The translations under genes were made by a program, and so were the position numbers. A DNA stretch of 52,569 nt, from positions 1-52,569 of the forward strand of contig NZ_CP079739.1 in assembly GCF_019916025.1 (NCBI RefSeq). Direction: 5' to 3'. A model generated the notes under the pieces. That model searched no databases, was not told the origin of the DNA, and was given only the letters and a program-made list of their open reading frames with translations. Origin of the DNA: Paraclostridium bifermentans (GTDB taxonomy: Bacteria; Bacillota; Clostridia; Peptostreptococcales; Peptostreptococcaceae). Shown here piece after piece: positions 4,283-21,321 of this stretch (position 1 is the stretch's first letter; every line of letters begins with the position of its first letter).

Positions 4283-4459
4283 TTGCCCCCCTGTCGGGAT
4301 GTTTCTTGATGCCAAAAAGCATCCTTTTACGAGTGCTTTGTCAATAAAACGGAGGAAATATTTTTATGCTGCATCACTTGTTTATGCATCATAAAAATAT
4401 TTATGGAGTGGAATTGATAAAGTAAGGGAGTAAGAGGTATGCTGTTGGGGGCAAGAAAC
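4283..4459 (-). repeat. Composite element copy 1, part A (leader of 4070-4237)
   Basis: Described on the minus strand, the sense of the gene it precedes. It begins GTTTCTTGCCCCC, contains an AT-rich hairpin with arms AAATATTTTTATG/CATAAAAATATTT, a TTGACA, and a small hairpin (GATGC..GCATC). It ends CAAGAAAC then GGGGGGCAA, about 40 bases before the ATG of the 55-residue gene. The first 13 bases can pair either with CAAGAAAC or with GGGGGCAA but not both. Five other copies have the same layout. Confidence 0.8.
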
Positions 4460-4474
4460 AAGACTTTAAATAGC

Positions 4475-4538
4475 AAATAAAAAAATATGGCCCTTGCTCC
4501 AAACTTGTTTTGGATCAAGGCCCATATTTCTTTTATTT
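4475..4538. terminator. T-type hairpin of composite element copy 1
   Basis: Stem arms ATATGGcCCTTG and CAAGGcCCATAT, flanked by A-run and T-run, close a loop CTCCAAACTTGTTTTGGAT. The inner CCAAA/TTTGG pairs extend the stem. It should end transcripts on either strand, which isolates part A from part B. Confidence 0.75.
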
Positions 4539-4584
4539 GGTTTCCTCTTTGATATGTTTTTAATATCTTTAGGTTTTATCTTTT

Positions 4585-4725
4585 GCAACCCTTCGGGTAC
4601 CCAAAATAGCAACGAGAGGACATTAATTGTTTAACTGTAGGTGGTTGCTCGGTAGATGAAACGCCTAGAGTTAATACAATTAATAGCCCTCTCTAAGCGT
4701 TATTTTAGGGTGAAGGATAAGTTGC
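4585..4725. ncRNA. Structured element B, copy 1
   Basis: About 141 bases that fold on either strand into a nested stem. In plus orientation GCAAC pairs with GTTGC, CCTTC with GAAGG, then ACCC plus an A-run with a T-run plus GGGT. A long arm follows (GAGAGG..ATTAATTG..TTAACT against AGTTAA..CAATTAAT..CCTCTC), capped by a loop containing GGTTGCTCGGTAGATGAAACG. Comparison with the copy at 19015 shows paired changes in the arms and a conserved loop. Whether it is an RNA, and which strand is expressed, is not known. Confidence 0.5.
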
Positions 4726-4866
4726 CCAAGCTTTATATTTAAAAGCCTTTAAAATAACTCCTTTAAAATAAACCTTTAAACTATTTATACAATTTTTAAA
4801 AGGGATTTTAATTCAAATGAAGAATTAGTTTCTTAGTATATGAAACAACTTTTAGGAGGTGTTTAA

Positions 4867-5181
4867 TTGCTTAAGAAACTCAAAAAAAACGAATATAATT
4901 GGACTTTTCAATACATAAAAGAATATAATGATATGGTTGCATACTATGAAAAACAATTAGAAGAAAAAGATAAAACTATAGACCTATTAAGAGCTGAAAA
5001 TCTAAAACTTAAAAAATCTAATAAATTCCAATCGAAAATAAAACAAATTTCAGATAAAGATATCCTTAAGATAAGAAAACTAAAAGATGAAGGTAAGAGT
5101 TATAATTTCATTTCAAAAGAAACAGGATGGAGCAAAGCTACTATAAGCAGAGTTATAAATAATAAAAGTGGTATATATTAA
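4867..5181 (+). CDS. Coiled-coil plus helix-turn-helix protein
   Basis: A TTG start six bases after AGGAGGTG; 104 residues. Residues about 15-55 form a charged coiled coil (YYEKQLEEKDKTIDLLRAEN). The C-terminal 45 residues are a helix-turn-helix of the resolvase/Hin type, with ISDKDILKIRKLKDEGKSY then ISKETGWSKATISRVI. There is no catalytic recombinase domain, so it is probably a DNA-binding regulator that dimerises through the coil. It is the only plus-strand gene in a minus-strand neighbourhood and is followed by its own terminator. Targets are unknown. Confidence 0.7.
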   Translation: MLKKLKKNEYNWTFQYIKEYNDMVAYYEKQLEEKDKTIDLLRAENLKLKKSNKFQSKIKQISDKDILKIRKLKDEGKSYNFISKETGWSKATISRVINNKSGIY

Positions 5182-5214
5182 AAAGTCACTCTAACGACAA
5201 TAAGAGTGACTTTA
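5181..5214 (+). terminator. Intrinsic terminator
   Basis: AAAGTCACTCT and AGAGTGACTTT pair around an 10-base loop immediately after the stop codon at 5181, followed by a short T-rich run. A second, weaker hairpin (AGAAACT/AGTTTCT with a T-run) lies at 5237-5277. Confidence 0.75.
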
Positions 5215-5317
5215 TCAAAAGTAATGTATATTACATAGAAACTTCACTCTAGACCAATAGATTGTAGTTTCTTTTTTGTTTATATAATACTAAAAAATTC
5301 ATAAAATTAAACATGAA

Positions 5318-5400
5318 TATTTTATAAATCTAAAATATTTTTTTAATAGTGCCTGATCTTTTCTTCTTTCTCTATCATTTTCATATATCATAGTTTGTTC
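5318..5400 (-). pseudogene. Truncated 3' copy of the coiled-coil gene at 5896-6618
   Basis: The minus-strand translation keeps most of the C-terminus of the gene at 5896-6618: TMIYENDRERRKD, then a diverged end. The nucleotide match runs from about 5318 to 5400 against 5901 to 5983 and stops abruptly at 5401, where an unrelated gene end begins. With the second AbrB-type gene at 5675-5854 it marks a tandem duplication of this block, followed by replacement of the middle. Confidence 0.65.
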
Positions 5401-5410
5401 AACATCCTTG

Positions 5411-5644
5411 CTAATCTTTCACTAACTCTATATACTCTGCGTGTTCGTCAAGTTGTAACCTTTTAGACGTATCTGACGTATTTAGTACAACACAAGGGAA
5501 TTTAGTCCCAAACATTTGATAGCTAGTTATTTCTATTTGTTCTAACTCTGATATATTTCCACAAGGATTAACACTATTTCTTATATGTATTTCTACATCA
5601 TCATCTATATCTTTAATCAATTCTTTTAATCTACCTATTTTCAA
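5411..5644 (-). CDS. Hypothetical acidic protein (77 aa)
   Basis: A TTG start after GGAGGATTTTAT. The first 20 residues (KIGRLKELIKDIDDDVEIHI) resemble the short helix plus strand seen in small phage-type accessory proteins. The C-terminus LDEHAEYIEL is echoed by LDEHEEYENL in the protein at 11257-11631, which hints at a shared module. There are no membrane or metal motifs. It seems to have landed inside the duplicated AbrB block, just next to the pseudogene remnant. Confidence 0.6.
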   Translation of the reverse strand: MKIGRLKELIKDIDDDVEIHIRNSVNPCGNISELEQIEITSYQMFGTKFPCVVLNTSDTSKRLQLDEHAEYIELVKD

Positions 5645-5674
5645 AATAAAATCCTCCTCATTAATTCGTCTTTG

Positions 5675-5854
5675 TTATAAGGCTTTTTTTATTATTATTT
5701 TATCATCTTCTCTATAGATTACTACTTTATTTTCTTCTCTTGTAATACTTAAATCAACAAGTAGTTCCTTCGGAATTATAATCCTTCCTGACGATCCAGA
5801 GCTAGTACCTCCGCCCTTATTAAAGTTTACATCCTTTTCGAATACTTTTTCCAT
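5675..5854 (-). CDS. AbrB/SpoVT-type DNA-binding protein, copy 1
   Basis: A protein of 59 residues. After FEKDVNFNKGGGTSSGSSG comes the swapped-hairpin AbrB core: GRIIIPKELLVDLSITREEN, then KVVIYREDDKIIIKK. Family members bind DNA as dimers, often as transition-state regulators or as antitoxins. It is nearly identical to the copy at 6696-6878. The long Gly/Ser linker before the core is unusual for such a short protein. The start follows GAGGTTATAAA. No toxin with a recognisable domain lies next to it; the coiled-coil gene at 5896-6618 is the constant neighbour. Confidence 0.8.
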   Translation of the reverse strand: MEKVFEKDVNFNKGGGTSSGSSGRIIIPKELLVDLSITREENKVVIYREDDKIIIKKAL

Positions 5855-5895
5855 TTTATAACCTCATTTAATGAATTTTTTATAAGTCTAAAATT

Positions 5896-6618
5896 TTATT
5901 TTTTAAATATATAAAATATTTTTTTAAATAGTTCCTTATCTTTTCTTCTTTCTCTATCTTTTTCATATATCATAGTTTGTTCATTATATTGATATTGATA
6001 TTGATATTGATATGGATATTGATATGGATAGTAATTTTTAAAATTACTATTTTCCTCTTCAAGTTCTTCTACTTTAACTTTTAACTCTTTTATCTCGTCT
6101 TGTAATTTTTTTTTTTCATCTTCTAAACTTTTTTTTTCATCTTCTAAACCTTTTTTTTCGTCGATTAATTGGCTTATTGAATACATCATATCACGTTCAT
6201 TAAGACAAATAGATGGAGTGTCTGCCGATGTATAATCGTTTTTTTCGTCTGTAATTTCAAATTTAAATTCCTTATTTATTAACTTTTTAAATTCTATATT
6301 CTTTGTCATATAACTATATTTTTCTACAATTCTATTCCATTCTTCTTTTTCATTCTCACCAAATAATTCATTATTACCGTAGAATTCACAATATTTTTTT
6401 AACTCTACTAAATCTTTATAATTGTTATAAAAATCTCTTGTAATCCTAGTTAGTGTTTCATTATATGCATTATCTGTTTTTTCATGTTTATAAAGTTCCT
6501 TTAATTCTAAACATACTATATTGCTATGAAAACTTAATCGTTTTATTATAGCTAAAAATCTCCTTTCTATAGAACTCATTTTTTCAGTATCATTTATATT
6601 TTCTTTGTTATTTATCAT
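5896..6618 (-). CDS. Coiled-coil protein with Gln/Tyr repeat
   Basis: A 240-residue protein; the start follows GGGGAG. Residues 1-130 are helical and charged without a motif I know. Residues about 150-195 form a heptad coiled coil with a short internal duplication (KKGLEDEKKSLEDEKKKLQDE). Then comes a Tyr/Gln/Pro stretch (YPYQYPYQYQYQYQY), coded by a CAATAT-type hexamer run at 5985-6031, and a basic C-terminus. It lies between two AbrB-type genes, in the same direction, so it may be regulated by or work with them. Changes in hexamer number would alter length without shifting frame. Confidence 0.65.
   Translation of the reverse strand: MINNKENINDTEKMSSIERRFLAIIKRLSFHSNIVCLELKELYKHEKTDNAYNETLTRITRDFYNNYKDLVELKKYCEFYGNNELFGENEKEEWNRIVEKYSYMTKNIEFKKLINKEFKFEITDEKNDYTSADTPSICLNERDMMYSISQLIDEKKGLEDEKKSLEDEKKKLQDEIKELKVKVEELEEENSNFKNYYPYQYPYQYQYQYQYNEQTMIYEKDRERRKDKELFKKIFYIFKK
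5985..6031. repeat. Hexanucleotide run coding for Tyr-Gln repeats
   Basis: Plus-strand ATTGAT/ATGGAT hexamers repeat about seven times inside the coiled-coil gene. Such runs are prone to slippage, and each step adds or removes two residues. Confidence 0.8.
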
Positions 6619-6695
6619 CTTATTATTTTCTCCCCATAAAATTTAAAACAAATATTCAAAGCTAATTTATTCAAAAAAAAGACTGCTTAATTATT

Positions 6696-6878
6696 TTATA
6701 GCTGTCTTTTTTTTATTATTATCTTATCATCTTCTCTATAGATTACTACTTTATTTTCTTCTCTTGTAATATTTAAATCAACAAGTAATTCTTTTGGAAT
6801 TATAATCCTTCCTGACGATCCAGAGCTAGTACCTCCGCCCTTATTAAAGTTTACATCCTTTTCAAATATTTTATTCAT
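6696..6878 (-). CDS. AbrB/SpoVT-type DNA-binding protein, copy 2
   Basis: A 60-residue paralogue of the protein at 5675-5854. It differs at only a few positions and at the last residues (KKRQL against KKAL). The ATG at 6878 follows GTGAGGTTATAC; an upstream frame extension has no ribosome site. The core GRIIIPKELLVDLNI is the conserved AbrB signature. A 33-residue membrane micropeptide ends just upstream and a promoter with a palindromic spacer lies at 7226-7254. It probably represses its own operon, as AbrB-type regulators often do; that is inference. Confidence 0.8.
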   Translation of the reverse strand: MNKIFEKDVNFNKGGGTSSGSSGRIIIPKELLVDLNITREENKVVIYREDDKIIIKKRQL

Positions 6879-6895
6879 TTTGTATAACCTCACTA

Positions 6896-6997
6896 TTATA
6901 ATATTAAAAGTTTTAATAGTATAAAGAATATAACTACAAAAGTAAAACGCCATAACCATTTTATAATTCTATCTACTTTCTTATCTTCACTATTCAT
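6896..6997 (-). CDS. Membrane micropeptide (33 aa)
   Basis: ATG-initiated, with a charged start (MNSEDKKVDRIIKW) followed by a hydrophobic helix (RFTFVVIFFILLKLLIL). The stop lies within the ribosome site region of the AbrB-type gene, so translation may be coupled. There is only a weak ribosome site (GTGAAAAT). The layout matches the next peptide upstream (7065-7172): polar head with EDKKVD, then one transmembrane helix. That similarity is the main support. Confidence 0.5.
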   Translation of the reverse strand: MNSEDKKVDRIIKWLWRFTFVVIFFILLKLLIL

Positions 6998-7064
6998 TTT
7001 AATATTTTCACTATGATTTTTGGAAGAAGGAAAGCCGACCCACTAAATCGACTCCCTTTGTTGT

Positions 7065-7172
7065 CTACTTAAAAAAAACAAGTAATCCAACTATTAAAGC
7101 AACTGAAGAGCTTATGCAAGCTATTAACAAATCTACTTTTTTATCTTCTGTGACTTTCTTCCATCTTATCAT
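7065..7172 (-). CDS. Membrane micropeptide (35 aa)
   Basis: The GGAGA site is well spaced from the ATG. The product is MIRWKKVTEDKKVD followed by a single hydrophobic helix of about 18 residues, ending in Phe-Phe-Lys. It shares the EDKKVD motif with the 33-residue peptide downstream. It is the first gene after the promoter at 7226-7254 in an operon micropeptide - micropeptide - AbrB - coiled-coil protein. Small toxin, sensor or regulatory peptide are all open. Confidence 0.6.
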   Translation of the reverse strand: MIRWKKVTEDKKVDLLIACISSSVALIVGLLVFFK

Positions 7173-7225
7173 AAGTGATTCTCCTTTCTTTAGACTTAGT
7201 AAGTTAAACTCTTACTATACTTAAT

Positions 7226-7254
7226 AGTATAACATAACAATCGTACGATTTCAA
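7226..7254 (-). promoter_or_regulatory. SigA-type promoter of the micropeptide/AbrB operon
   Basis: On the minus strand TTGAAA is separated by 17 bases from TATACT. The spacer holds the 10-bp palindrome ATCGTACGAT, a likely operator, possibly for the AbrB-type protein of the same operon. The first ribosome site is about 45 bases downstream. Confidence 0.7.
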
Positions 7255-7616
7255 TATTTCTACGGATTTATTTTTAAAATATTGAATAAATTTTCTTAAA
7301 CAAGTATAATATAATTAACAATTATCATAAGTGATAAACTTTCTTTAGAGTTTATACAAAAAAAGAATCATGCCACTAACATGATTCTTTTTTTATTTCT
7401 ATGTAGTTTATAAAAGTTATTTAAATTACCTAATATAACTTTAAAATTACAGTTGTTATATAATGCCTTATAAAACATAATTACTAACGCATTGCTTATT
7501 AATCTACTAAACAATTAAAGTTAAAAACAAACTTCAATTGTCACGCAAATTAAACGCAATTTTGTTGCTCCTATTATTTATAGTTTATATGACTAAATAT
7601 ACAGGAATTTAAAGTT
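7255..7616. other. Gene-free stretch with one bidirectional terminator
   Basis: It holds the hairpin AGAATCATG/CATGATTCT with A and T runs at 7358-7394. It also holds a diverged repeat of the sequence around the 35-residue peptide start (ATCATAAGTGAT near 7324 against 7168), probably a remnant. I see no convincing gene in the remaining AT-rich sequence. Confidence 0.5.
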
Positions 7617-7657
7617 TTAAACTTATATTCCGTATACCAATAAATATAAGTTTAAAT
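7617..7657. promoter_or_regulatory. 14-bp inverted repeat upstream of 7680-7964
   Basis: TTTAAACTTATATT and its perfect reverse complement lie 13 bases apart, ending 23 bases before the ATG of the membrane protein gene. It looks like an operator or a leader hairpin. Confidence 0.55.
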
Positions 7658-7679
7658 TTATTATTAGGAGTTTATTGTT

Positions 7680-7964
7680 ATGGGAAAAAAAGAACAAATA
7701 GAAATACTTGATAGAAGAATTAATTTTTATTTATCAGGACTGATGGCACAAGGTGTTGCATTAATAACACTTCTTTCATTAGCACTATCTATCAAAGGTG
7801 AACAAGTAAGTTTCTTTAAATTAATTCATAATGAATATTTTTTAGGTTGTATATTTGTATTTGAATTTTTTACTTTGTATCATATAGTAAGAAAAGTTTT
7901 TAAATATCTTAAAAAAATAGAATCTTTATATAATGTAACTGGAAAAGAAGATTTTCTAAAATAA
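7680..7964 (+). CDS. Small membrane protein, two transmembrane segments
   Basis: A 94-residue protein. A basic/acidic head (KKEQIEILDRRINFYLSG) precedes hydrophobic helices at about residues 22-40 and 52-70, followed by a charged tail. TTAGGAG precedes the ATG. It has no motif I know. The last six codons are part of a 29-bp perfect inverted repeat (7945-8004), so the mRNA ends in a long stem. It sits next to the resolvase gene but has its own operator-like repeat. Confidence 0.65.
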   Translation: MGKKEQIEILDRRINFYLSGLMAQGVALITLLSLALSIKGEQVSFFKLIHNEYFLGCIFVFEFFTLYHIVRKVFKYLKKIESLYNVTGKEDFLK

Positions 7965-8004
7965 CTAATATTTTTAAATATTAGTTATTTTAGAAAATCT
8001 TCTT
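7945..8004. terminator. 29-bp perfect inverted repeat overlapping a gene end
   Basis: Arms 7945-7973 and 7976-8004 are perfect complements with only TT between them. The left arm is coding sequence (the EDFLK end and stop) and the right arm is its mirror. It probably ends transcription on both strands; an arm this long with such a tight centre is unusual. Confidence 0.7.
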
Positions 8005-8012
8005 AATTCAAG

Positions 8013-8135
8013 AGTTCGTAAAAGTAGTAAATAACGAACTACATATTATATATATCAAAAATATGTAAATTCAATAAAAAATCTCAAAAAAAATTAATAA
8101 TTCAGTTCGTAAATAAGTGCATAGTTTTATGAACC
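8013..8135. promoter_or_regulatory. Candidate resolution site (two subsites)
   Basis: Subsite 1 is 8013-8040: exactly 28 bp, bounded by AGTTCG and CGAACT, the length of a resolvase crossover site. Subsite 2 is 8104-8135, bounded by AGTTCGTAAA and TTTATGAACC. Both lie just upstream of the resolvase gene, where res sites normally sit. The second subsite approaches the TATAAT at 8143-8148, so the resolvase may repress itself. Confidence 0.6.
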
Positions 8136-8178
8136 TTTATGTTATAATTATGCTATAAAATAGAAAGGTTTTAAAAAT

Positions 8179-8787
8179 ATGTTAATAGGATATTGTAGAG
8201 TTTCCACAAATGAACAAAATTTAGATAGACAAATAGAAAGTTTAAAAAAATATGGTTGTGAAAAAATATATTGCGATAAAGCAACAGGCAAAAATTTTAA
8301 TAGACCCGAGTATATAAAATTAAAAGATGCTATCAGATCAGGGGACACTTTAGTCGTGCATGAATTTGATAGACTAGGACGTAATAAAAGATTAACATTA
8401 AAAGAAATTCAATATTTTAAAGATAATCAAATTAGATTGGTAGCATTAAACCTTCCAACTACTCAATTAGATACAGACGATAATTTAATGTTAGAAACTA
8501 TAAATAATATAATTATTGAACTATATACAATGATGGCTCAAGATGAAATTGAGAAAAGAGAGAAAAGGCAAAGGGAAGGAATAGAACTAGCCTTAAAAAA
8601 TGGAGTACGCTTTGGTAGACGTAAATTATCCTATCCTAAAGAGTGGGATAGTATTATAGAGCTGGTTAATAAAAAAGCTATCAGCAATGTAAGAGCTATG
8701 GAAATATTAGGACTTAAAAAAACTACATATTATAAATTATTGAAAGAATATAAAAATAGTAATCCTTTAGAATCTACAAATTCTTAA
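8179..8787 (+). CDS. Serine recombinase, resolvase/invertase family
   Basis: A 202-residue protein of the usual small resolvase size. The catalytic serine is S9 in IGYCRVSTNEQNLDRQ. The catalytic domain continues with EFDRLGRNKR, and the long helix E (EIEKREKRQREGIELALKNG) leads to a C-terminal Hin-type helix-turn-helix (ISNVRAMEILGLKKTTYYKLL). It likely resolves plasmid dimers at the site at 8013-8135. DNA inversion elsewhere is an alternative. The ATG follows GAAAGG. No partner transposase is present, so it is not part of a visible transposon. Confidence 0.88.
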   Translation: MLIGYCRVSTNEQNLDRQIESLKKYGCEKIYCDKATGKNFNRPEYIKLKDAIRSGDTLVVHEFDRLGRNKRLTLKEIQYFKDNQIRLVALNLPTTQLDTDDNLMLETINNIIIELYTMMAQDEIEKREKRQREGIELALKNGVRFGRRKLSYPKEWDSIIELVNKKAISNVRAMEILGLKKTTYYKLLKEYKNSNPLESTNS

Positions 8788-8823
8788 TTTAAATATGAAA
8801 AACATAAAAAAGGGGTGAATATA

Positions 8824-9252
8824 TTGAAAGAAAATATTTTAAACATTTCTCAAAGTAACTATGGGGAATATGAGGAAAAGTTAAACATTCTAAGTAAAGT
8901 ATCTTTTGATACTTTTATAAAAGAACTAGAAAAAATATCTATTAAAAGAAATTTAGCTGGTATGGTAAATTATGAGTGTCTTTGTTTTATTAAAAATACT
9001 TTACTAGCATTTGATAAGATAGAATTTAATGATAGTATTTCAAGTAGTATGATTATCGTAAATTGGGAACAGTTAAGGCTTAAATCTAATTTAAATTTAA
9101 CTGAAAGAGAATTTTATAAATGGGTATACAATGGTATGATTAATGGTATTTCAAATATTATAGATGAAGATATTATGTATAATACTAGTAATAGGTTTTT
9201 ATTAAATTTAAGAGATTTCTTCTGTTTAATAAATATTATTGATAAAGAATAA
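8824..9252 (+). CDS. Hypothetical protein (142 aa)
   Basis: The TTG at 8824 lies eight bases after GGGG and is preferred over the GTG at 8815, which overlaps the ribosome site. The product is mostly helical with conserved-looking segments (NWEQLRLKSNLNLTERE) but no motif I recognise. It starts 36 bases after the resolvase gene and precedes a Cro/C1-type regulator, so all three may form one operon. Confidence 0.6.
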   Translation: MKENILNISQSNYGEYEEKLNILSKVSFDTFIKELEKISIKRNLAGMVNYECLCFIKNTLLAFDKIEFNDSISSSMIIVNWEQLRLKSNLNLTEREFYKWVYNGMINGISNIIDEDIMYNTSNRFLLNLRDFFCLINIIDKE

Positions 9253-9289
9253 CTGCAAATAGTAAAAATTTTTAAAGGAATTGTAAACA

Positions 9290-9526
9290 ATGCACATAGG
9301 TGATTTAATCAGACTAAAGAGAAAATCTCATAGACTAACACAAATTGAATTAAGTGAAAAAATATTATCATGTCCTAAAAATAGAATCTGTAAATTAGAG
9401 AAAAAGCCAAAATATATTTTAACTTTTAATTTAGATAAATTGCATATCCTTAGTGAAGTTTTAGACATTGATATAGATATTTTAATTAAAGAAAAAAAGA
9501 GATTTGAAGAGTTGAAAAAAAAATAA
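9290..9526 (+). CDS. Cro/C1-type helix-turn-helix regulator (78 aa)
   Basis: The N-terminal 60 residues are an XRE domain: IGDLIRLKRKSHRLTQIELS, then CPKNRICKLEK as recognition helix, then LSEVLDIDIDIL. The second half is a short basic helix. AAAGGAATT precedes the ATG. It is the last gene of the resolvase run and is followed by a terminator. It probably acts as a local repressor, as single-domain XRE proteins usually do. Confidence 0.75.
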   Translation: MHIGDLIRLKRKSHRLTQIELSEKILSCPKNRICKLEKKPKYILTFNLDKLHILSEVLDIDIDILIKEKKRFEELKKK

Positions 9527-9567
9527 AAAAGTAGTCAGTTAACTTTATTAACTGACTACTTTTTTTA
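9524..9567. terminator. Bidirectional intrinsic terminator
   Basis: AGTAGTCAGTTAA and TTAACTGACTACT pair around a 5-base loop, with A and T runs outside. It separates the plus-strand regulator gene from the minus-strand gene at 9663. A diverged relative (AGTAGTCA..TGACTACC) lies at 15410-15440, also 3' of a minus-strand gene, and the two share about 40 further bases downstream. Confidence 0.8.
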
Positions 9568-9662
9568 GAAAGTATTTCATTAAATTTGAAAAATTAGAAA
9601 TATATAGTGTATTAATATTGTACTATATATTTCAATTCAATTCTAAATAAATTTCTATTTTT

Positions 9663-10079: not shown

Positions 10080-10096
10080 AAAATATTCCTCCACTA

Positions 10097-10144
10097 TGGG
10101 GGCTAGAAATCCCCCCAATTTATAAATGTGTTTCGTAGCCCCCA
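10097..10144 (-). promoter_or_regulatory. Leader hairpin with G/C runs before 9663-10079
   Basis: TGGGGGCTA and TAGCCCCCA pair across about 30 bases, directly upstream of the ribosome site. A third run (GGGGGG) inside the loop could compete for the same C-run. This echoes the alternative G/C pairing in the A leaders, although the sequence is otherwise different. Confidence 0.5.
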
Positions 10145-10195
10145 CGAATTAGTTAATAAAATTAATATATCAATTAATATAAATTAAATTTACTT

Positions 10196-15360: not shown

Positions 15361-15552
15361 ACTTTAATAGTACCCTTATAAGCTCTTTAATTTCTTAATT
15401 TAGATATAAAAAAAGTAGTCAATACCTCTAATGACTACCTTCAATGTATATTTTGTTTAACTTACAGTGTAATTAATATTGTACTATATATATTTTTTAA
15501 TTCAATCCTTATTATCTATTTACTTGTATGTATATTTTCTCTTTAAATATAC
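15361..15552. other. 3' region of the gene at 15553, no gene seen
   Basis: It contains an imperfect hairpin AGTAGTCA..TGACTACC (15410-15440) and about 40 bases (GTGTAATTAATATTGTACTA) shared with the 3' region of the gene at 9663. I see no gene. Confidence 0.5.
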
Positions 15553-15945
15553 CTAAGCCGATAATATTACGTCTAATTCTTCCATGTTACTTCTATCTTG
15601 TGATTTAACCTCTATATACTTTAAATCGTACATAATATAAGTATCTCTAATTAATTCATTTTCGTTACTATATTCCATATGTCCTAGTGGTTCATTATCC
15701 CTATAAATATAAGTTCTTTGAAATTTATATTTCTTGTTAAATGCTGGTGTTATTAAAACATAATCATTATTAGTAAATACAAGTTTAATTGTTTCATACT
15801 TTTTTAAAATAGATTTTATTATTTCTTCCCTTTTATCTATTTGCTTAATAAATAAATCAAATTCATTAAAAGGATGTGCATTTATATTATCAACTTTAAT
15901 TATCATATTACCTTCATTGTTTTTAATTATATTTAAATTATCCAT
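15553..15945 (-). CDS. Hypothetical protein (130 aa)
   Basis: AGGAGGTCATAC lies before the ATG. It is a soluble, strand-rich protein with a pattern of short hydrophobic strands (LVFTNNDYVLI, YKFQRTYIYR) resembling small phage-type beta proteins. It has no cysteines and no membrane segment. Its 3' flank is shared with the gene at 9663, although the proteins are not similar. Family unknown. Confidence 0.6.
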   Translation of the reverse strand: MDNLNIIKNNEGNMIIKVDNINAHPFNEFDLFIKQIDKREEIIKSILKKYETIKLVFTNNDYVLITPAFNKKYKFQRTYIYRDNEPLGHMEYSNENELIRDTYIMYDLKYIEVKSQDRSNMEELDVILSA

Positions 15946-15979
15946 TGTATGACCTCCTAAAGCCTTTAAATTTATTGTT

Positions 15980-16123
15980 TTAATCTATTATTTGTTTATA
16001 TATTTCTTCGTGTGTCATACCCTCTTCAATATTTCCATAGTATAAAAAATTACCATTTTCATCTATTACCTCGCACCAAGTACCCTCTATCCATATGCTA
16101 GTATTATTTATAATTTTTTTCAT
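15980..16123 (-). CDS. Small hypothetical protein (47 aa)
   Basis: ATG-initiated with GGATGG about 13 bases upstream. The sequence reads as a small beta hairpin followed by a helix: IWIEGTWCEVIDENGNFLYY, then EEGMTHEEIYKQII. It lies 34 bases upstream of the gene at 15553 in the same direction, so the two are probably co-transcribed. It is short but has sensible composition and a plausible fold. Confidence 0.5.
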   Translation of the reverse strand: MKKIINNTSIWIEGTWCEVIDENGNFLYYGNIEEGMTHEEIYKQIID

Positions 16124-16154
16124 TTCTGATTTACCATCCTTTTAATTTATGAAT

Positions 16155-16183
16155 TTTGGGTATTTTATGAGGTAATACCCAAA
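16155..16183. terminator. Hairpin 3' of the gene at 16191
   Basis: TTTGGGTATT and AATACCCAAA, close relative of the hairpin at 10804-10829 and in the same place relative to a minus-strand gene end. Confidence 0.55.
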
Positions 16184-16190
16184 CCTTTTT

Positions 16191-16451
16191 TTAGTGTATA
16201 TGTTCCGTTTTGTCCCTAAAACAATGACCTTTATACACCCAACTTATCCCATCATGTATAAAAGTTGCATATGTGCTTCCCCCCCTTGAATCCCAGCCAT
16301 AAGGCTCACTAACTTGTAACATATTGCTTCTATCTACTAAAGGTGGTAAAACATTTAAAAAATGCTCGTAAATTTCATTATCTACTCTATCCCCTGGGTT
16401 AAAATCTGTACCAAAATCATATTTCCAATCTTTCATAGTTTTTATTATCAC
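16191..16451 (-). CDS. Conserved small protein of mobile elements, under A leader copy 4
   Basis: A GTG start seven bases after GGAGG gives 86 residues; the longer frame to 16682 runs through the A element and is not real. The sequence FLNVLPPLVDRSNMLQVSEP, then STYATFIHDG and WVYKGHCFRDKTE, resembles a widespread small family of Firmicute conjugative elements that I recall with the same LNVLPP, TYATF and CFRGKTE signatures. The function of that family is unknown to me. It is directly led by part A copy 4, the copy with the divergent hairpin. Confidence 0.65.
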   Translation of the reverse strand: MIIKTMKDWKYDFGTDFNPGDRVDNEIYEHFLNVLPPLVDRSNMLQVSEPYGWDSRGGSTYATFIHDGISWVYKGHCFRDKTEHIH

Positions 16452-16488
16452 TGTAATACCTCCTAAAATTTTAACTTTCGAGTTCGAG

Positions 16489-16666
16489 TTGCCCCCTCCT
16501 CCGAATGTTTCTTGATGCCATAAAGCATCCTTTTGCGAGTGCTTTGTCAATAAAGTGGAAAAATTATTTTTACTGCAGTTAAACTTGTTTTGCAGCAGTA
16601 AAAATAATTTTGGAGCGGAATTGATAAAGTAAGGGAGTAAGAGGTATGCTATTGGGGGCAAGAAAC
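16489..16666 (-). repeat. Composite element copy 4, part A with compensatory hairpin
   Basis: Same ends and same competing 3' segments as the other copies, but the central hairpin has changed on both sides. The plus-strand arms are AAATTATTTTTACTGC and GCAGTAAAAATAATTT instead of AAATATTTTTATG and CATAAAAATATTT. The ACTTGTTT loop word is retained. Pairing is kept while sequence is not, which is strong evidence for a selected fold. Confidence 0.85.
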
Positions 16667-16680
16667 TTATATAAAATAGC

Positions 16681-16741
16681 AAATAAAAAGATACGGGCCT
16701 TGCTCCAACTTGCTTGGATCATAGCCCATATCTTTTTATTT
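16681..16741. terminator. T-type hairpin, copy 4
   Basis: Arms AAAGATACGGGCCTTG and CATAGCCCATATCTTT (one mismatch and one G-T) with the constant loop TCCAACTTGCTTGGAT. Confidence 0.75.
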
Positions 16742-16787
16742 GGTTTCCTTTTTAATATGTTTTTAATGTCTTTATGCTTTAGCTCTT

Positions 16788-16929
16788 GCAACCCTTCGGG
16801 TACCCGAAAATAGCAACGAGAGGTCATTAGTTGTTTAACTGTAGGTGGTTGCTCTCAGATGAAACGCCTAGAGTTAATACAATTAATAGACCTCTCTAAG
16901 CGTTACTTTTTGGGTGAAGGATAAGTTGC
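16788..16929. ncRNA. Structured element B, copy 4
   Basis: About 142 bases with the same base pairing as copy 1: GCAAC/GTTGC closing stem, ACCC/GGGT, GAGAGGTC/GACCTCTC, TTAACT/AGTTAA. The apical loop has GGTTGCTCTCAGATGAAACG. On the minus strand it lies downstream of the gene at 17058 and upstream of the T hairpin, as a 3' untranslated element would. Expression is unproven. Confidence 0.5.
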
Positions 16930-17057
16930 CCAACATATATAAAATATTAATATTACAATGGTATTACAAGCATATTACAACTATATCAAAGTATTACATA
17001 TGTAATAAATAAACGTTCTTAATTTGAAAATATCCTTTAAAAAATATTTGTGAAATT

Positions 17058-17324
17058 TTATATGTTACTTCCTAGTTCCTCTATAACAAACTTTTCATTT
17101 GCTTCTAAATGATATGGTGTATATTTTACTATATAATCTTCTTTTCGTGTATTTAAATACGTTCCATATGTTTCTAGTGTACCATTTTTATATTTTGTAT
17201 GTTCTTCTTCATTCATAATATAAAGTTTATCATCTATAATTATTGGGGTTTCATTTGGATATAGTTCAATTTCCTTTATTACTTTATCTTCATTAAACAT
17301 ATCAACCTTAGTAACTTTATACAT
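17058..17324 (-). CDS. Hypothetical protein (88 aa), operator-controlled
   Basis: AAGGAGGACT precedes the ATG. It is a soluble, strand-rich protein (YKVTKVDMFNEDKVIKEIEL, then KLYIMNEEEHTKY). No family is recognised. Its promoter region is shared with the divergent gene at 17496 and carries two palindromes with CACGA/TCGTG arms. It is therefore probably controlled by the small DNA-binding protein encoded on the other strand. Confidence 0.6.
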   Translation of the reverse strand: MYKVTKVDMFNEDKVIKEIELYPNETPIIIDDKLYIMNEEEHTKYKNGTLETYGTYLNTRKEDYIVKYTPYHLEANEKFVIEELGSNI

Positions 17325-17369
17325 AAATAGTCCTCCTTCAATACCTTTTAATCAAGTTTTCTAATTATC

Positions 17370-17457
17370 ATTATACACGAAGTCGTGTATAATATCTAGC
17401 ATTTTTGCACGACTTCGTGTATGCTTTATAGACTATTTATACACTTAATTGTATAAT
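17370..17457. promoter_or_regulatory. Divergent promoters with two CACGA/TCGTG operators
   Basis: Minus promoter: TATAAT at 17370-17375 (read on the minus strand) with TAGATA 17 bases upstream. Plus promoter: TAGACT (17429-17434), 17 bases, TATAAT (17452-17457). Between them lie the palindrome TATACACGA-AG-TCGTGTATA (17372-17391) and a second CACGA-CT-TCGTG (17408-17419). The first overlaps the minus -10, so a bound protein would block that promoter; the second lies just upstream of the plus -35. Confidence 0.7.
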
Positions 17458-17495
17458 AAAATTATAGAATTAAAATTTAAGGAGAAAAATTATAA

Positions 17496-17708
17496 ATGAT
17501 TAAAAATCCTAAATTTAAAGGCTTATTATCAATCTCCCAAGCTGGAAAATTATATAATAAATCAGAATCAACTTTAAGAAGAAATATTTCAAATGGTAAA
17601 TTTATAGAGGGTGAAGATTGCATAAAGTTAGGTACTTATTGGATATTCGATAAAAAAGCATTAGATAGAGAATACGGAAAAACAGATAAACCTAATAAAA
17701 AAGAATAA
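17496..17708 (+). CDS. Excisionase-like helix-turn-helix protein (70 aa)
   Basis: The ATG follows AAGGAG. The product has a MerR/excisionase-style winged helix: LLSISQAGKLYNKSESTLRR, then NGKFIEGEDCIKLGTYWIF, where the wing and Trp are typical. Such proteins act as excision factors or small repressors. No integrase is present in the window, so a repressor role on the adjacent CACGA/TCGTG operators is more likely. The gene interrupts a composite element: a truncated A part begins eight bases after its stop. Confidence 0.7.
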   Translation: MIKNPKFKGLLSISQAGKLYNKSESTLRRNISNGKFIEGEDCIKLGTYWIFDKKALDREYGKTDKPNKKE

Positions 17709-17715
17709 TTTTTTT

Positions 17716-17858
17716 GCATCATAAAAATATCTATGAAGTGATATTGATAAATTAAGTAAATAAGAGGTAGCCATTGGGACAAGAAACTGTAATAAATAAA
17801 AAAAGATAGTAAATGCTATTCCAACTTGTTTGGATCATAGCATTTACTATCTTTTTTT
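17716..17858. repeat. Truncated composite element (half of A plus T)
   Basis: From TTGCATCATAAAAATAT onward it matches the right half of part A, with degenerate end (ATTGGGACAAGAAAC instead of ATTGGGGGCAAGAAAC). A T hairpin follows at about 17796-17858 (arms AGATAGTAAATGCTA and TAGCATTTACTATCT, constant loop). The left half of A is missing, replaced by the plus-strand gene. Confidence 0.75.
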
Positions 17859-17882
17859 GAGCAATTAAATTTTTATCAGTTC

Positions 17883-17908
17883 TAAAAAAGAAGGGGTTAT
17901 GCCCCTCC
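17883..17908 (-). terminator. Intrinsic terminator after the gene at 17914
   Basis: On the minus strand AGGAGGGGC, ATAA, CCCCTTC, then TTTTTT. Confidence 0.6.
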
Positions 17909-17913
17909 TATTT

Positions 17914-18102
17914 TTATCTATATATTTTTCTAACTATTTTGTACTCTCCATCTATATCGATTTTATCTATGCCTAATTCTAAGTATGTAAAATTTCCTTC
18001 TCTCATTTTTTTATTAAATAATTTATGCCCTTCTCCTAAATCATTTAATTTATTTACTTCATATTTTCCATTATTCGCAACATATAGTATTATTTTTTTC
18101 AT
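17914..18102 (-). CDS. Small hypothetical basic protein (62 aa)
   Basis: AGGAGGTTTCAATA lies before the ATG. It starts KKIILYVANNGKYEVNKLND, a strand followed by charged turns, and ends in basic residues. It is a compact beta-rich protein of unknown family. Its upstream region contains the repeat-plus-terminator module also seen at 3745-3837, which separates it from the A-led gene upstream. Confidence 0.55.
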   Translation of the reverse strand: MKKIILYVANNGKYEVNKLNDLGEGHKLFNKKMREGNFTYLELGIDKIDIDGEYKIVRKIYR

Positions 18103-18150
18103 TATTGAAACCTCCTAAATTTTTATATTCAACTTGTATTTTTTATTTTT

Positions 18151-18236
18151 TAGGAGTATACTCATACTTAAGTTATGGGTAGTATTCATATACTCCTATA
18201 TTGAGTGCTATAGATTGCCTTCTATAGCACTTTTTT
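18151..18236. terminator. Inverted repeat followed by terminator, second copy
   Basis: TAGGAGTATA (18151-18160) and TATACTCCTA (18189-18198), then AGTGCTATAGA/TCTATAGCACT (18204-18231) with TTTTTT on the plus strand. It closely parallels 3745-3837 in order and sequence. Confidence 0.6.
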
Positions 18237-18241
18237 AATGC

Positions 18242-18673
18242 TTACCATGCACATTCTCTTTGCTCCTTTATGGCTTTTTTAAGTCCATGTAATAAGTTCT
18301 CATTTTTATTAATTTCTTCCATTGTAAGCCCTAAAGCATCAAGTGTTTCATCTAATTCCCAAGTTATACAGTATTCGTGATTTCCTAATTCATAACTAAA
18401 CATACTATATATAAATCCTTCGCCTGTTAAATCTTCATTTATAGCCTTTTTAAACTCTTCCTTATGTCTAGCAAGCATATCATCTAATGCTTTTTCATCT
18501 GATTTTCTTATATATCCACCAGCTCCAATTGATAAAATTTTATTAGTTTCATTTTCTTTCAATCCTAATTTTGCCATACCTTCTGCAAATTGCTTCTTAC
18601 TAAATGCAAACATCATTGGAAACTCATTTACTTCCTTTCCTTGCTTTTCTTTTAATTCTCTGTACTTACTCAT
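18242..18673 (-). CDS. Conserved hypothetical protein under A leader copy 5 (143 aa)
   Basis: TAGGAGGATTTTGAT precedes the ATG. The sequence opens SKYRELKEKQGKEVNEFPMM, followed by FAFSKKQFAEGMAKLGL and a Gly-rich turn GAGGYIRKSD. I believe this is a widespread family in Firmicute plasmids and integrative elements, always of unknown role. It ends at the repeat/terminator at 18151-18236. The start is well supported, the predicted fold is alpha/beta, and there is no membrane segment. Confidence 0.7.
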   Translation of the reverse strand: MSKYRELKEKQGKEVNEFPMMFAFSKKQFAEGMAKLGLKENETNKILSIGAGGYIRKSDEKALDDMLARHKEEFKKAINEDLTGEGFIYSMFSYELGNHEYCITWELDETLDALGLTMEEINKNENLLHGLKKAIKEQRECAW

Positions 18674-18714
18674 ATCAAAATCCTCCTAAAATTTATTTAA
18701 CTTCCGAGTTCGGG

Positions 18715-18890
18715 TTGCCCCCCCCTCGAATGTTTCTTGTTGCCATAAAGCATTCTTTTACGAGTGCTTTGTCAATAAAACGGAGGAAATTATTTTATGC
18801 TGCATCACTTGTTTATGCATCATAAAATAATTTATGTAGTGGAATTGATAAAGTAAGGGAGTAAGAGATATGCTATTGGGGGCAAGAAAC
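18715..18890 (-). repeat. Composite element copy 5, part A (leader of 18242-18673)
   Basis: Hairpin arms AAATTATTTTATG and CATAAAATAATTT, changed on both sides relative to copies 1 to 3. The same 13-base 5' strand, TTGACA and competing CAAGAAAC/GGGGGCAAC segments are present. A GTTGCC replaces GATGCC in the small hairpin, which weakens that stem. Confidence 0.8.
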
Positions 18891-18905
18891 TAAACTTTAA
18901 ATAGC

Positions 18906-18968
18906 AAATTAAAAAGATGGTCCATGTTTCCAAACTTGTTTTGGATCATAGACCATCTTTTTATATTT
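18906..18968. terminator. T-type hairpin, copy 5
   Basis: Arms AAAAGATGGTCCATG and CATAGACCATCTTTT with loop TTTCCAAACTTGTTTTGGAT. Confidence 0.75.
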
Positions 18969-19014
18969 GCTTTCCTTTTTGATATGTTTTTAATGTATTT
19001 ATCTTTTAGCTCTT

Positions 19015-19155
19015 GCAACCCTTCGGGTACCCGAAAATAGCAAAGAGAGGTCATTGATTATTTAATTTCAGACGTTTGCTCGCAGATGAAACGTTTGAAA
19101 TTAATTTAATCAATAGACCTGTCGAAGCGTCATTTTTGGGTGAAGGATAAGTTGC
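19015..19155. ncRNA. Structured element B, copy 5 (most diverged)
   Basis: The arms differ from copies 1, 4 and 6 but still pair: TTGATT/AATCAA in place of TTAATT/AATTAA, and TTAATTTCA/TGAAATTAA in place of TTAACT/AGTTAA. The stem below the loop is ACG/CGT. The loop TTTGCTCGCAGATGAAACG and the outer ACCC/GGGT, CCTTC/GAAGG and GCAAC/GTTGC pairs are kept. These paired changes are the main evidence that B is a selected structure. Confidence 0.6.
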
Positions 19156-19232
19156 CCGAATTGTCTTTTATATGCTCTTAAAAAAGGAATTACACCATCT
19201 AATACCCTAACTATAGTAAAAATTTTATATAC

Positions 19233-19430
19233 TTAATTTTGCTTAAAATCTTTTAAAAAATCTCTAACAACTTTAATACAAACATATAGTGCAACAATTA
19301 CAAATAATACTTTTGTTACATCAAATATAAACTTATTATTAGTTATAATTGATATACATGAAAACCAAGCTAATATAAAAAACATGCCTTTCATTATAAA
19401 ATTAATAATTTTATTTTCTGAAAAATTCAT
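19233..19430 (-). CDS. Small membrane protein (65 aa)
   Basis: Two hydrophobic helices (FIMKGMFFILAWFSCISII and VTKVLFVIVALYVCIKVV) joined by a short polar turn, with a basic tail. AAGGAGATAA precedes the ATG. It lies just upstream, in the minus sense, of structured element B copy 5, which could be its 3' untranslated region. I recognise no family. Confidence 0.6.
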   Translation of the reverse strand: MNFSENKIINFIMKGMFFILAWFSCISIITNNKFIFDVTKVLFVIVALYVCIKVVRDFLKDFKQN

Positions 19431-19510
19431 ATATTATCTCCTTAATATCTCTAACGTAACTAAATTTACTTAAAGTTTAGCATAAATATTAAATTTAATA
19501 CAAAATGTAA

Positions 19511-19646
19511 AATAGCAAATAAAAAAATGGTATATGCTCCAACTTGTTTGGATCATATACCATTTTTTTATTTGCTTTACTTTTTGATATATTTTAATCC
19601 CTTTATGTTTTGACTTTCGCAACCCTTCGCGTGCCTGAAAATAAAT
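19511..19646. repeat. Remnant composite element: T hairpin and start of B
   Basis: The T hairpin at 19518-19573 (arms AAATGGTATATG and CATATACCATTT, constant loop) is intact. It is followed by the usual spacer and then only the first 28 bases of B (CGCAACCCTTCGCGTGCC), already mutated. Part A is absent. R2 sequence follows directly. Confidence 0.7.
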
Positions 19647-19752
19647 ACTTATTATTATTTAAATATAATTATTATAATAAAAAATATGCAATTTATAAGA
19701 ATTATAAAAAATATATAAATTATAGTATTACAATGATATTACAACTGTAATA
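19640..19752. repeat. AT-rich repeat R2, copy 2
   Basis: Closely similar to 15205-15310, including ATATAATTATTATAATAAAA at about 19663-19682 and GTATTACAATGATATTACAA. In both places R2 starts where B ends or is deleted, so R2 may have replaced B by recombination. Only the left half of the inverted repeat seen at 15287 is kept. Confidence 0.6.
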
Positions 19753-19793
19753 CTATAATTTATATTAAATTCAAGCCTTTTAAAACACTTGTT

Positions 19794-20096
19794 TTATAAT
19801 CCTCTATACGCTAAATACTCTTTATAGTTTTCCTCGCCTTCTTTTGGTGTAGGATAATAAATATCTATTCTATCAGAATCATAAAACATATAACTTTTAA
19901 TTAACATGTCATTTTCTATATAATCTATGCAACAATATGAAACTTTGTTTTCGTCAGAAATTTCAATTTGATAACTTTTTAAACTTGTTGGTACTGCATC
20001 CATTTTTTCCTCTAAGCGAGGTATATAGTATTGAAAATTATATACTTCTAAAAAATTTATTACTTCTTCTCTAGTTTTAAATTTTATATTTTTCAT
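19794..20096 (-). CDS. Hypothetical protein (100 aa)
   Basis: GGAGGGTTAAAA precedes the ATG. It is a soluble alpha/beta protein starting KNIKFKTREEVINFLEVYNF, then strands with a CCIDYIENDML segment. Two adjacent cysteines near residue 53 are not in a zinc spacing. Ends with a Tyr-rich tail. No family is recognised. It precedes another unknown gene in the same direction. Confidence 0.6.
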   Translation of the reverse strand: MKNIKFKTREEVINFLEVYNFQYYIPRLEEKMDAVPTSLKSYQIEISDENKVSYCCIDYIENDMLIKSYMFYDSDRIDIYYPTPKEGEENYKEYLAYRGL

Positions 20097-20228
20097 TTTT
20101 AACCCTCCAAATTATTTTATATTTTAATAATATCATTTAATATGGCACTATATATGTGATAATAAAAATATTTTGCTAGTTTTTAAAAAGGAACTAGAAA
20201 ACCTTTTTAAATTATACCTTTATTGTAT

Positions 20229-20843
20229 CTAATAATTAACTTGTATTTTTAATAACCTATTATTTGTACTCATACCTAATTTGTATAAATCAACTTCATA
20301 AGAATGACATCTAATAGTTATAGAGTTATCATCCATAGAATGAAGGACTATTTTAGAATACTTTGATTTTAATTTTTCCCTTATTTCTTTATCTATTTTG
20401 GAATACGCTTCATTTCTTGCGATAGTTCTATTTTTATTTAATTCATGATTATTCATCAAATTATATTCATTATAATTCCCATGCACTCTATAGCCCTCCA
20501 TCCAATCTAAAACCTCTATAGTGTCAAACTTACAATTGAAATTTTCATTTATATACTTTGTTAGGTCTTTTTTTGAATATCCTTTAAAAAATGTATTTTT
20601 TAATTTTATCCTAGAAATATTTTCATCAGTTGATACGCTCAAATTAAAACAATGGTCAATATGTGTATACCATCCGAATTTTTTTGAAGTTTTGCAATTG
20701 TATAAAGTTCCGCCTAATTCTAAATATATTTTATTTCCGTTACCATCTATAAAAGCAGTTCTAATTCTATAATTTCCAACGTCTGAACCATCCTCATAAA
20801 TATTCCTCCCAGCACCTTCAAATAATAAAATATTTTTTTCCAT
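20229..20843 (-). CDS. Hypothetical protein under A leader copy 6 (204 aa)
   Basis: TAGGAGGATTAAAA precedes the ATG. It is the longest of the A-led genes, opening EKNILLFEGAGRNIYEDGSD. The protein alternates strands and turns through most of its length and looks like a compact beta-rich domain with an extra helical hairpin near residue 140. There is no export signal and no metal motif. The function is unknown, but its leader is complete and typical. Confidence 0.6.
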   Translation of the reverse strand: MEKNILLFEGAGRNIYEDGSDVGNYRIRTAFIDGNGNKIYLELGGTLYNCKTSKKFGWYTHIDHCFNLSVSTDENISRIKLKNTFFKGYSKKDLTKYINENFNCKFDTIEVLDWMEGYRVHGNYNEYNLMNNHELNKNRTIARNEAYSKIDKEIREKLKSKYSKIVLHSMDDNSITIRCHSYEVDLYKLGMSTNNRLLKIQVNY

Positions 20844-20880
20844 TTTTAATCCTCCTAAAATTTTAACTTCCGAGTTTGAG

Positions 20881-21057
20881 TTGCCCCCTCCTCCGAATGT
20901 TTCTTGATGCCATAAAGCATTCTTTTACGAGTGCTTTGTCAATAAAACGAAGGAAATTATTTTATGCTGCATCACTTGTTTATGCATCATAAAATAATTT
21001 ATGTAGTGGAATTGATAAAGTAAGGGAGTAAGAGATATGCTATTGGGGGCAAGAAAC
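20881..21057 (-). repeat. Composite element copy 6, part A (leader of 20229-20843)
   Basis: Nearly identical to copy 5, with hairpin arms AAATTATTTTATG and CATAAAATAATTT. It carries the same flanking CTCAAACTCGGAAGTTAAAA between the G-run and the ribosome site as copies 4 and 5. Confidence 0.8.
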
Positions 21058-21072
21058 TAAACTTTAAATAGC

Positions 21073-21133
21073 AAATAAAAATATATGGGCCTTCTTCCAA
21101 CTTGTTTGGATCATAGCCCATATATTTTTATTT
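21073..21133. terminator. T-type hairpin, copy 6
   Basis: Arms AAAATATATGGGCC and GGcCCATATATTTT-like (TAGCCCATATATTTT), with loop TTCCAACTTGTTTGGAT; one side has a small mismatch. Confidence 0.7.
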
Positions 21134-21179
21134 GGTTTCCTCTTTGATATGTTTTTAATGTATTTATCTTTTAGCTCTT

Positions 21180-21321
21180 GCAACCCTTCGGGTACCCGAA
21201 AATAGCAACGAGAGGTCATTAATTGTTTAACTGTAGGTGGTTGCTCGTAGATGAAACACCTAGAGTTAATTCAATTAATAGACCTGTCTAAGCGTTACTT
21301 TTTGGGTGAAGGATAAGTTGC
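21180..21321. ncRNA. Structured element B, copy 6
   Basis: It is nearly the same as copy 4, with a few changes: AAACACC in place of AAACGCC in the loop stem and GACCTGTC in place of GACCTCTC on the 3' arm. The nested stems and the apical loop GTTGCTCGTAGATGAAAC are kept. Confidence 0.5.

Follow-up and report, generated by a model that had tools for sequence, protein, structure and literature searches.

A repeated hairpin element preceding unrelated genes on a Paraclostridium bifermentans plasmid: a candidate single-stranded-DNA promoter

What is the role of the three-part intergenic element, composed of modules A, T and B, that recurs along an array of minus-strand genes in contig NZ_CP079739.1 of Paraclostridium bifermentans? 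This contig, called here the window, is a complete stretch of 52,569 b (C3 of a 5-contig genome) and is a conjugative plasmid of a clostridium. A first-pass annotation read from the letters had suggested that the composite may be a modular control cassette, a recombination substrate that swaps single-gene units, or both. We lean, with somewhat better than even confidence, towards A being a Frpo-like single-stranded-DNA (ssDNA) promoter for the establishment genes of the plasmid; the fold and the strand bias of A can be read from its sequence, and the promoter function is inferred.

The repeated element and the genes it precedes

A blastn search with one copy as the query against the plasmid's own genome (5 contigs) gave matches confined to this one contig. 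The full elements, at 4283-4725, 16489-16929, 18715-19155 and 20881-21321, are 86-91% identical to the query copy, and since this identity extends over ~440 bp at E <=1e-141, the element repeats far beyond chance. A and T without B were matched at 11674-11954 and 14888-15183, remnants at 19510-19643 and 17711-17837, and a lone T at 3201-3301 (E 7e-4). All the copies and coordinates of the first-pass annotation were recovered in this search.

As had been described, every A ends just before the ribosome-binding site of a minus-strand gene: the distance to the start codon is 37-69 bp in 6/6 cases, with a Shine-Dalgarno-like stretch between. The led proteins comprise 55, 124, 130, 86, 143 and 204 amino acids (aa), and their genes are indeed mutually unrelated, blastp of 27 minus-strand open reading frames (ORFs), all six led ones included, giving the 27 self matches only (E<=1e-3). 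The occurrence of A before six different genes, and its like placement on other plasmids, supports the idea of a modular control cassette.

Full A copies number 12 on five replicons, all from Peptostreptococcaceae: six are in the window, three on pTPHSE1, and one each on p_TW11 and on the contigs G016 and G002, the latter having one additional A cut by the contig end. All 12 stand on the relaxase-sense strand, in the order origin of transfer (oriT)-relaxase-A on each of the five replicons. Among 71 genomes of the family, A is matched in six, with long matches in three (the own genome, G002 and G016), and B in three; outside the window, B is represented by one full copy on G016 and by its 3' half on G033, and it was not found on pTPHSE1 or p_TW11 (E<=1e-3). 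A genome pattern scan matched two contigs, G016 and G002, and neither phage records nor an IMG/VR pattern scan gave a match. A covariance model of A, the check proposed at first, was run across 393 genomes of the order under stricter filters and matched three genomes, all of them already known carriers. Rfam yielded no family at gathering score over the window, so that a known RNA family, named at first as what would overturn the proposal, was not encountered; at E<=1 in 3000-22300 there were 12 matches (11 to microRNA models and one to a small RNA), all far below gathering score.

Identity among the A copies is higher within plasmids (81-99% in the window, 100% among the three of pTPHSE1) than when the window is compared with other replicons (67-83%), a pattern consistent with duplication or gene conversion. 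Three of the six led-gene families recur beside their own A on another replicon. The protein of 11257-11631 is related to that of pTPHSE1 32056-32436 (47% identity, both A-led), that of 18242-18673 to G002 75-497 (65%, the A there being the one cut by the contig end), and the 55-aa ORF to a 51-aa ORF on G016 (72% over 32 aa, both A-led). These three fit the idea that gene and element move together across related plasmids; for the other three, the replicons compared contain no A-led relative. These recurrences and the homogenised copies are also what one can expect if the composite were chiefly a recombination or mobile unit of gene plus element, with no regulatory role. However, all 12 full copies have the same orientation and the spacing to the start codons is tight in all six cases, and we regard such a purely mobile unit as very improbable. 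Unit swapping as proposed at first is backed in part by the same recurrences and homogeneity, but no recombinase site or junction was shown.

Fold, strand bias and promoter-like site of A

As DNA, the + strand of A is predicted to fold into one imperfect hairpin of ~160 nt, both here and on the other replicons (the fold of the p_TW11 copy deviates in its lower part). Of the 54 pairs, 13 have changed on both sides among the 10 distinct sequences while still pairing; several of these lie in the apical stem, the least certain part of the alignment. The pair cells of the same sequences comprise 451 Watson-Crick, 48 G.T, 1 A.C and 29 other, a count that leans to G.T because the structure was derived from the + strand fold. 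In a strand-neutral test, in which one arm was aligned to the reverse complement of the other and wobble was ignored, G.T still exceeded A.C by 56 to 1 (12 copies) or 48 to 1 (10 distinct copies). The latter was reached in 0/2000 partner shuffles, which gave on average 35.4 vs 6.1 in the mismatched columns, the few shuffled pairs turned Watson-Crick being left out. The + strand is the more stable one in 12/12 copies, by 2.0-7.2 kcal/mol, and whole elements as + strand DNA fold better than shuffles (z -10.9 and -9.2). Since the A copies are related, these figures cannot be taken as independent counts.

These data bear on the possibility that A is a regulatory RNA leader (5' untranslated region) through which translation or transcription elongation of the minus-strand mRNAs is controlled. 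Such a leader would end where A does, close before the start codon in 6/6 cases; most of the pairs are Watson-Crick and form in the minus strand as well, and the minus-strand RNA of one whole element also beats its shuffles (z -8.3). Nevertheless, a minus-strand RNA would show the opposite of the 48:1 ratio of G.T to A.C mismatches found on the + strand, the 12-14 bp between the A hairpin and the T stem would hardly accommodate a promoter upstream of A, and A matches no Rfam family. We consider an RNA leader unlikely.

Each of the 12 full A copies carries in its 3' arm a site of the type TTGAYR-18/19-TATGCT, oriented such that transcription from the folded + strand would enter the led gene. 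Its -35 box is TTGATA in eight copies, TTGATG in three and TTGACA in one, the spacer is 18 bp (19 in G002), and the -10 box is TATGCT in 11 copies and TAAGCT in one. On a simple sigma-A promoter scale, the weights of which are approximations, this site scores 10.0-12.1 vs 6.8-8.6 for the double strand toward the gene in 12/12 copies, the double-strand scores being below 8.8, the median of random 185-bp window stretches. The AT-rich apical stem lies upstream of the -35 box, as in the computed fold of F Frpo. A thus shares with the Frpo type a predicted stable single-strand hairpin bearing -35 and -10 boxes.

The pair types, which favour the + strand as the folding one, together with the position of T after A in that direction, would also suit a + strand transcript in which A then T form a small antisense RNA repressing the minus-strand gene. 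Between plasmids, however, conservation fades upstream of TTGCCCC just outside the hairpin, where no shared + strand promoter is seen, and the conserved promoter-like site inside the 3' arm would start the RNA after most of the hairpin; an antisense RNA appears distinctly improbable.

Toward the gene, the double strand contains TTGACA in 12/12 copies (aligned as TTTGTCAA on the + strand) without a good -10. In 11/12 copies this box serves as the -35 of one of the two top-scoring sites, and it could belong to an ordinary double-stranded promoter with a repressor, similar to EGeRS2 of p576, the hairpin being incidental or an operator. One pLS20 clade drives its establishment genes from such a repressed double-stranded promoter (PMC8708921). 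Yet no -10 fits, and the two-sided change across the hairpin is not needed for an operator, so that we hold a double-stranded promoter to be quite unlikely.

Known parallels and the polarity of transfer

According to the single-stranded promoter reading, the minus-strand array would be the establishment (leading) region of the plasmid, and the + strand would enter the recipient as the transferred strand. Each A on this incoming strand would fold into its imperfect hairpin and offer RNA polymerase a duplex with the 3' arm as the non-template and the 5' arm as the template. Having passed the hairpin base, the polymerase would continue on the single strand next to it, where the template of the minus-strand gene lies. 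Once second-strand synthesis had taken place, both arms would be paired with the newly made strand, the -10 box would disappear and the gene would fall silent; T, to judge by its shape, may stop transcripts of one unit from running into the neighbouring one.

Single-stranded promoters have been shown to express genes in enterobacterial plasmids and are a known mechanism for the leading genes of F (PMC9849209). Like A, the Frpo/ssi elements of F and ColIb-P9 are long imperfect hairpins beside the ribosome-binding sites of leading-region genes, on the strand that serves as their template; Frpo is present in two copies in F, and its folding rebuilds the -35 and -10 boxes (PMC9849209, PMC11541004). 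A is distinguished by its size (~160 nt vs nearly 300 in the computed F Frpo fold) and its Gram-positive host, and it is a sequence-level candidate at present. In 19 kb of F around the leading region, A, T and B find only a 15-base T match (E 0.08) and the A model finds nothing. Among Gram-positives, the principle of folded ssDNA recognised as a promoter by RNA polymerase is already known from the sso of rolling-circle plasmids and ICEBs1, where it serves priming (PMC4595007); unlike sso, A precedes genes. A Gram-positive single-stranded promoter driving genes was not met among the literature matches listed, and MOBP2 plasmids were set aside in a large leading-region survey (PMC11541004).

The first-pass annotation knew of no described family with this order, which does not hold, because EGeRS1 of pLS20 plasmids shows the same arrangement. 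On pLS20, five copies of EGeRS1 precede establishment operons of the minus strand (PMC8708921). In both systems, similar copies stand directly upstream of the ribosome-binding sites of unrelated minus-strand genes or operons and are clustered past oriT and a related relaxase, with the same oriT core; the establishment role of the A-led genes would follow from this position. Both elements are hairpin-rich and fold better as the + strand, that of EGeRS1 beating its complement and shuffles in 5/5 copies (z -3.8 to -6.0, copies B-E being represented by their proximal 381 nt only). At the same time, A, T and B have no significant similarity to EGeRS1 of pLS20 (lowest E 0.05, identity not exceeding the 60% required for membership), and pLS20 contains no match to the A model at E<=1. 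EGeRS1 copies, 420-751 bp long, resemble the composite in that all have the proximal module and one lacks the distal module; on the other hand, they are G+C-rich (PMC8708921) and multi-branched, whereas A is a single hairpin, separated from B by the T hairpin with its near-invariant loop.

EGeRS1-B showed no promoter in either orientation and blocked read-through, by a mechanism called unknown (PMC8708921). In our scan, 4/5 EGeRS1 copies (B-E, score 7.1) have TGGACA-17-TAAAAA in the 3' arm close to the base of the hairpin, and the motif was not located in copy A; transcription from it would start too near the ribosome-binding site for us to rely on it. On the best-supported reading, A would represent a Frpo-like family of ssDNA promoters that is new and Gram-positive, with a layout like that of EGeRS1. 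That A and EGeRS1 are independent, unrelated families of ssDNA promoters for genes in Gram-positive conjugative plasmids is a tentative extension, to which we give slightly less than an even chance. If true, it would explain the transient expression of establishment genes in pLS20-type plasmids, and it would make the CTTATGCTCTT strand the one transferred by MobL/MobP2 relaxases, reversing the published pLS20 assignment. A itself is a compact 160-nt candidate supported by covariation, and its strand signature predicts which strand such plasmids transfer.

The favoured reading needs transfer of the + (CTTATGCTCTT) strand, because this strand is the template of the minus-strand genes. The CTTATGCTCTT 11-mer is the oriT core of MOB-MG plasmids, and in Staphylococcus the nick site was narrowed down to 16 bp surrounding it (PMC4652767). 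The core is common to all six replicons considered, i.e., 5/5 A-carrying ones and pLS20, and pTPHSE1, p_TW11, the G002 and G016 contigs and pLS20 combine it with inverted repeats different from those of the window. Besides the shared core, the position of the inverted repeats, 5' of the core on the CTTATGCTCTT strand, speaks for transfer of this strand, being the usual arrangement; transfer is spoken of as proceeding downstream of the core (PMC4652767). In our own reading, the deletion described there does not by itself fix the direction of transfer.

Rolling-circle plasmids were considered for a polarity test, which was not used because its result is split by lineage. In these plasmids, the rep-sense strand is the displaced strand. 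The core is on the rep-sense strand in 4/4 staphylococcal rolling-circle plasmids (three of one rep type and one of another) and opposite to the rep strand in 5/5 Bacillus ones of one lineage. Rep_1 was assigned through Pfam in three plasmids; further ones were assigned by similarity to these three, and the rest by annotation. The count leaves out L074, in which rep is in pieces (the pieces and the core share one strand); seven plasmids of Lactobacillus, Lacticaseibacillus and Sporosarcina in which no rep was shown to be of rolling-circle type, two of the seven having cores on each strand; and the variant site TTATGCAC, which follows inverted repeats and is on the rep-sense strand in 3/5 of the Bacillus plasmids counted.

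Two oriT-like cores are present in some small plasmids of Bacillus and Lacticaseibacillus, at 2257/2443 in L061, where the inverted-repeat type differs, and on opposite strands at 2110/2857 in L059 and 3833/4580 in L066; the Bacillus two-core plasmids also have the TTATGCAC variant on the other strand. The Carnobacterium MobP2 plasmid L075 has an AcrIIA9-family gene and ssb past its relaxase (21681-22118, 25233-25724); since both are on the relaxase strand, unlike the array here, it is of no help on polarity.

Several observations weigh against a single-stranded promoter, the split outcome of the polarity test being one of them. Mapping placed the pLS20 nick on the complement of the needed strand (PMC5313138), about 40 bp beyond the core, and the window relaxase is 66% identical to the relaxase whose nick was so mapped; no later remapping is found among the literature matches listed. 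The authors of PMC8708921 rejected an ssDNA promoter for EGeRS1 mainly because the mapped transferred strand is not the template, and also because no promoter was seen in the fold. As the partner shuffles indicate, base composition accounts for much of the G.T excess of A, although an excess remains. The energy asymmetry of A against shuffles is modest (z -0.7 to -3.2), and the stable minus-strand RNA mentioned above belongs here too. One quarter of random 185-bp stretches score at least 10.3 on the promoter scale, and promoter-like sites are as frequent as in shuffles (148 found vs 144.5 expected). Two F Frpo controls have little energy asymmetry (z -0.3, -1.3) and low promoter scores (2.8-3.9), hence neither measure is a validated classifier; for the same reason, a single-stranded promoter need not be strongly asymmetric. 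After the shuffles and the F control, free-energy asymmetry was downgraded as a strand test. Finally, no recognised anti-defence family was found among the six led genes in Pfam, PHROGs, NCBIfam and PADLOC, and a terminator scan, which seeks an uninterrupted stem, flagged 0/9 T hairpins.

Led genes, T and B modules and plasmid context

The positions of the modules, the relaxase gene and the predicted oriT are collected in Table 1.

Table 1. Features of the window that bear on the repeated element
Feature	Position	Strand	Remark
MobL/MobP2 relaxase gene	199-1767	+	66% identical to pLS20 relaxase over residues 5-351 of 522
Predicted oriT	51949-52003	+	two inverted repeats, then CTTATGCTCTT (51,993-52,003); core motif from PMC4652767
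A copy 1	4283-4461	-	hairpin 4299-4459 on + strand; leads 55-aa ORF 4070-4237
TTGATA-18-TATGCT in 3' arm of A copy 1	4414-4443	+	non-template strand if + strand folded
A copy 2	11670-11850	-	hairpin 11687-11847; leads 11257-11631
A copy 3	14888-15066	-	hairpin 14904-15064; leads 14426-14818
A copy 4	16489-16668	-	hairpin 16505-16666; leads 16191-16451
A copy 5	18715-18892	-	hairpin 18730-18890; leads 18242-18673 (DUF7659)
A copy 6	20881-21059	-	hairpin 20897-21057; leads 20229-20843
A remnant, 3' arm only	17711-17788	-	T adjoins it; remnant 17711-17859 overall
T hairpin, lone copy	3209-3275		ends approximate
T hairpin of element 1	4474-4539
T hairpin of element 2	11862-11924
T hairpin of element 3	15078-15140
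T hairpin of element 4	16680-16742
T hairpin beside A remnant	17797-17859
T hairpin of element 5	18903-18971
T hairpin with first ~30 bases of B (about 19617-19646)	19514-19576		remnant from 19511
T hairpin of element 6	21072-21134
B copy 1, long hairpin	4584-4725		no strand preference by pair type
B copy 2	16787-16929
B copy 3	19014-19155
B copy 4	21179-21321

Family searches covered five of the six led genes in Pfam and PHROGs, and all six plus three of pTPHSE1 in NCBIfam and PADLOC. They yielded DUF7659, the only family assigned to a led protein of the window (18242-18673), and RadC, to which a gene led by one A of pTPHSE1 belongs; the rest was marginal. With a charge of -17 each, the 124-aa protein and its relative on pTPHSE1 are highly acidic. 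In 198 genomes of the order, the 124-aa protein (gene 11257-11631) has, besides its own, three weak matches inside longer frames. From position alone, we infer that the led genes are establishment genes, and A marks an array of uncharacterised proteins as possible members of this class. Elsewhere in the array, gene 12650-13339 has similarity to AP2 and HNH-endonuclease, and two places on pTPHSE1 resemble it. The genes 10833-11150 and 14005-14322 share a 68-bp start region with 85% identity (11115-11182, 14287-14354), and their proteins have no mutual blastp match at 1e-3.

The nine T hairpins have the loop CCAA(A)CTTGYTT(T)GGATCA and the same orientation (9/9). Their outer stem varies between copies yet keeps pairing, the loop is near-invariant, and A- and T-runs occur on the flanks. 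Since the T stem starts 12-14 bp beyond the A hairpin, T stands between A and anything upstream, and its shape suggests that it may insulate the units or end transcription.

B, a second hairpin, is present in 4/6 window units. In five copies, its pair types show no strand preference (G.T 6 vs A.C 5), and its + strand folds better in 5/5 (2.3-6.3 kcal/mol, z -0.8 to -2.9). A promoter role of B was rejected: no conserved site is visible by eye, and the pair types favour neither strand. TAAGCGT occurs in 3/4 B copies and resembles the CS-6 motif. Priming of the second strand is one guess as to its function, and sso would be a possible analogue, bearing in mind that B has no strand preference by pair type.

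Two further repeats were seen in the array: a 189-bp stretch beyond T is duplicated with 85% identity (15129-15317, 19563-19751), the copy at 19563 overlapping the start of B, and a 177-bp direct repeat is 94% identical (5684-5860, 6708-6884).

On the plasmid, the oriT core is positioned upstream of the relaxase gene, the minus-strand array starts ~1.5 kb past this gene, and the first A lies 2.5 kb past it. Other window genes encode a CD1115-type VirD4 coupling protein, a peptidoglycan hydrolase, and a RepM/RepE-like protein (25591-26652), the resemblance of which is below the curated cut-off. Just upstream of the last gene, ~7 direct repeats of 22 bp (TGTCCATATTAAAGTACCCATC type) at 26690-26887 are likely replication iterons. 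Repeats of 45, 57 and 60 bp at 40029-40891 and 44731-46420 fall inside the large + strand ORFs 39736-41184 and 43437-46565, which possibly encode surface proteins beside the transfer genes. In the transfer region, a 260-bp stretch is duplicated in tandem at 38612-39196 (95%), together with part of a third copy.

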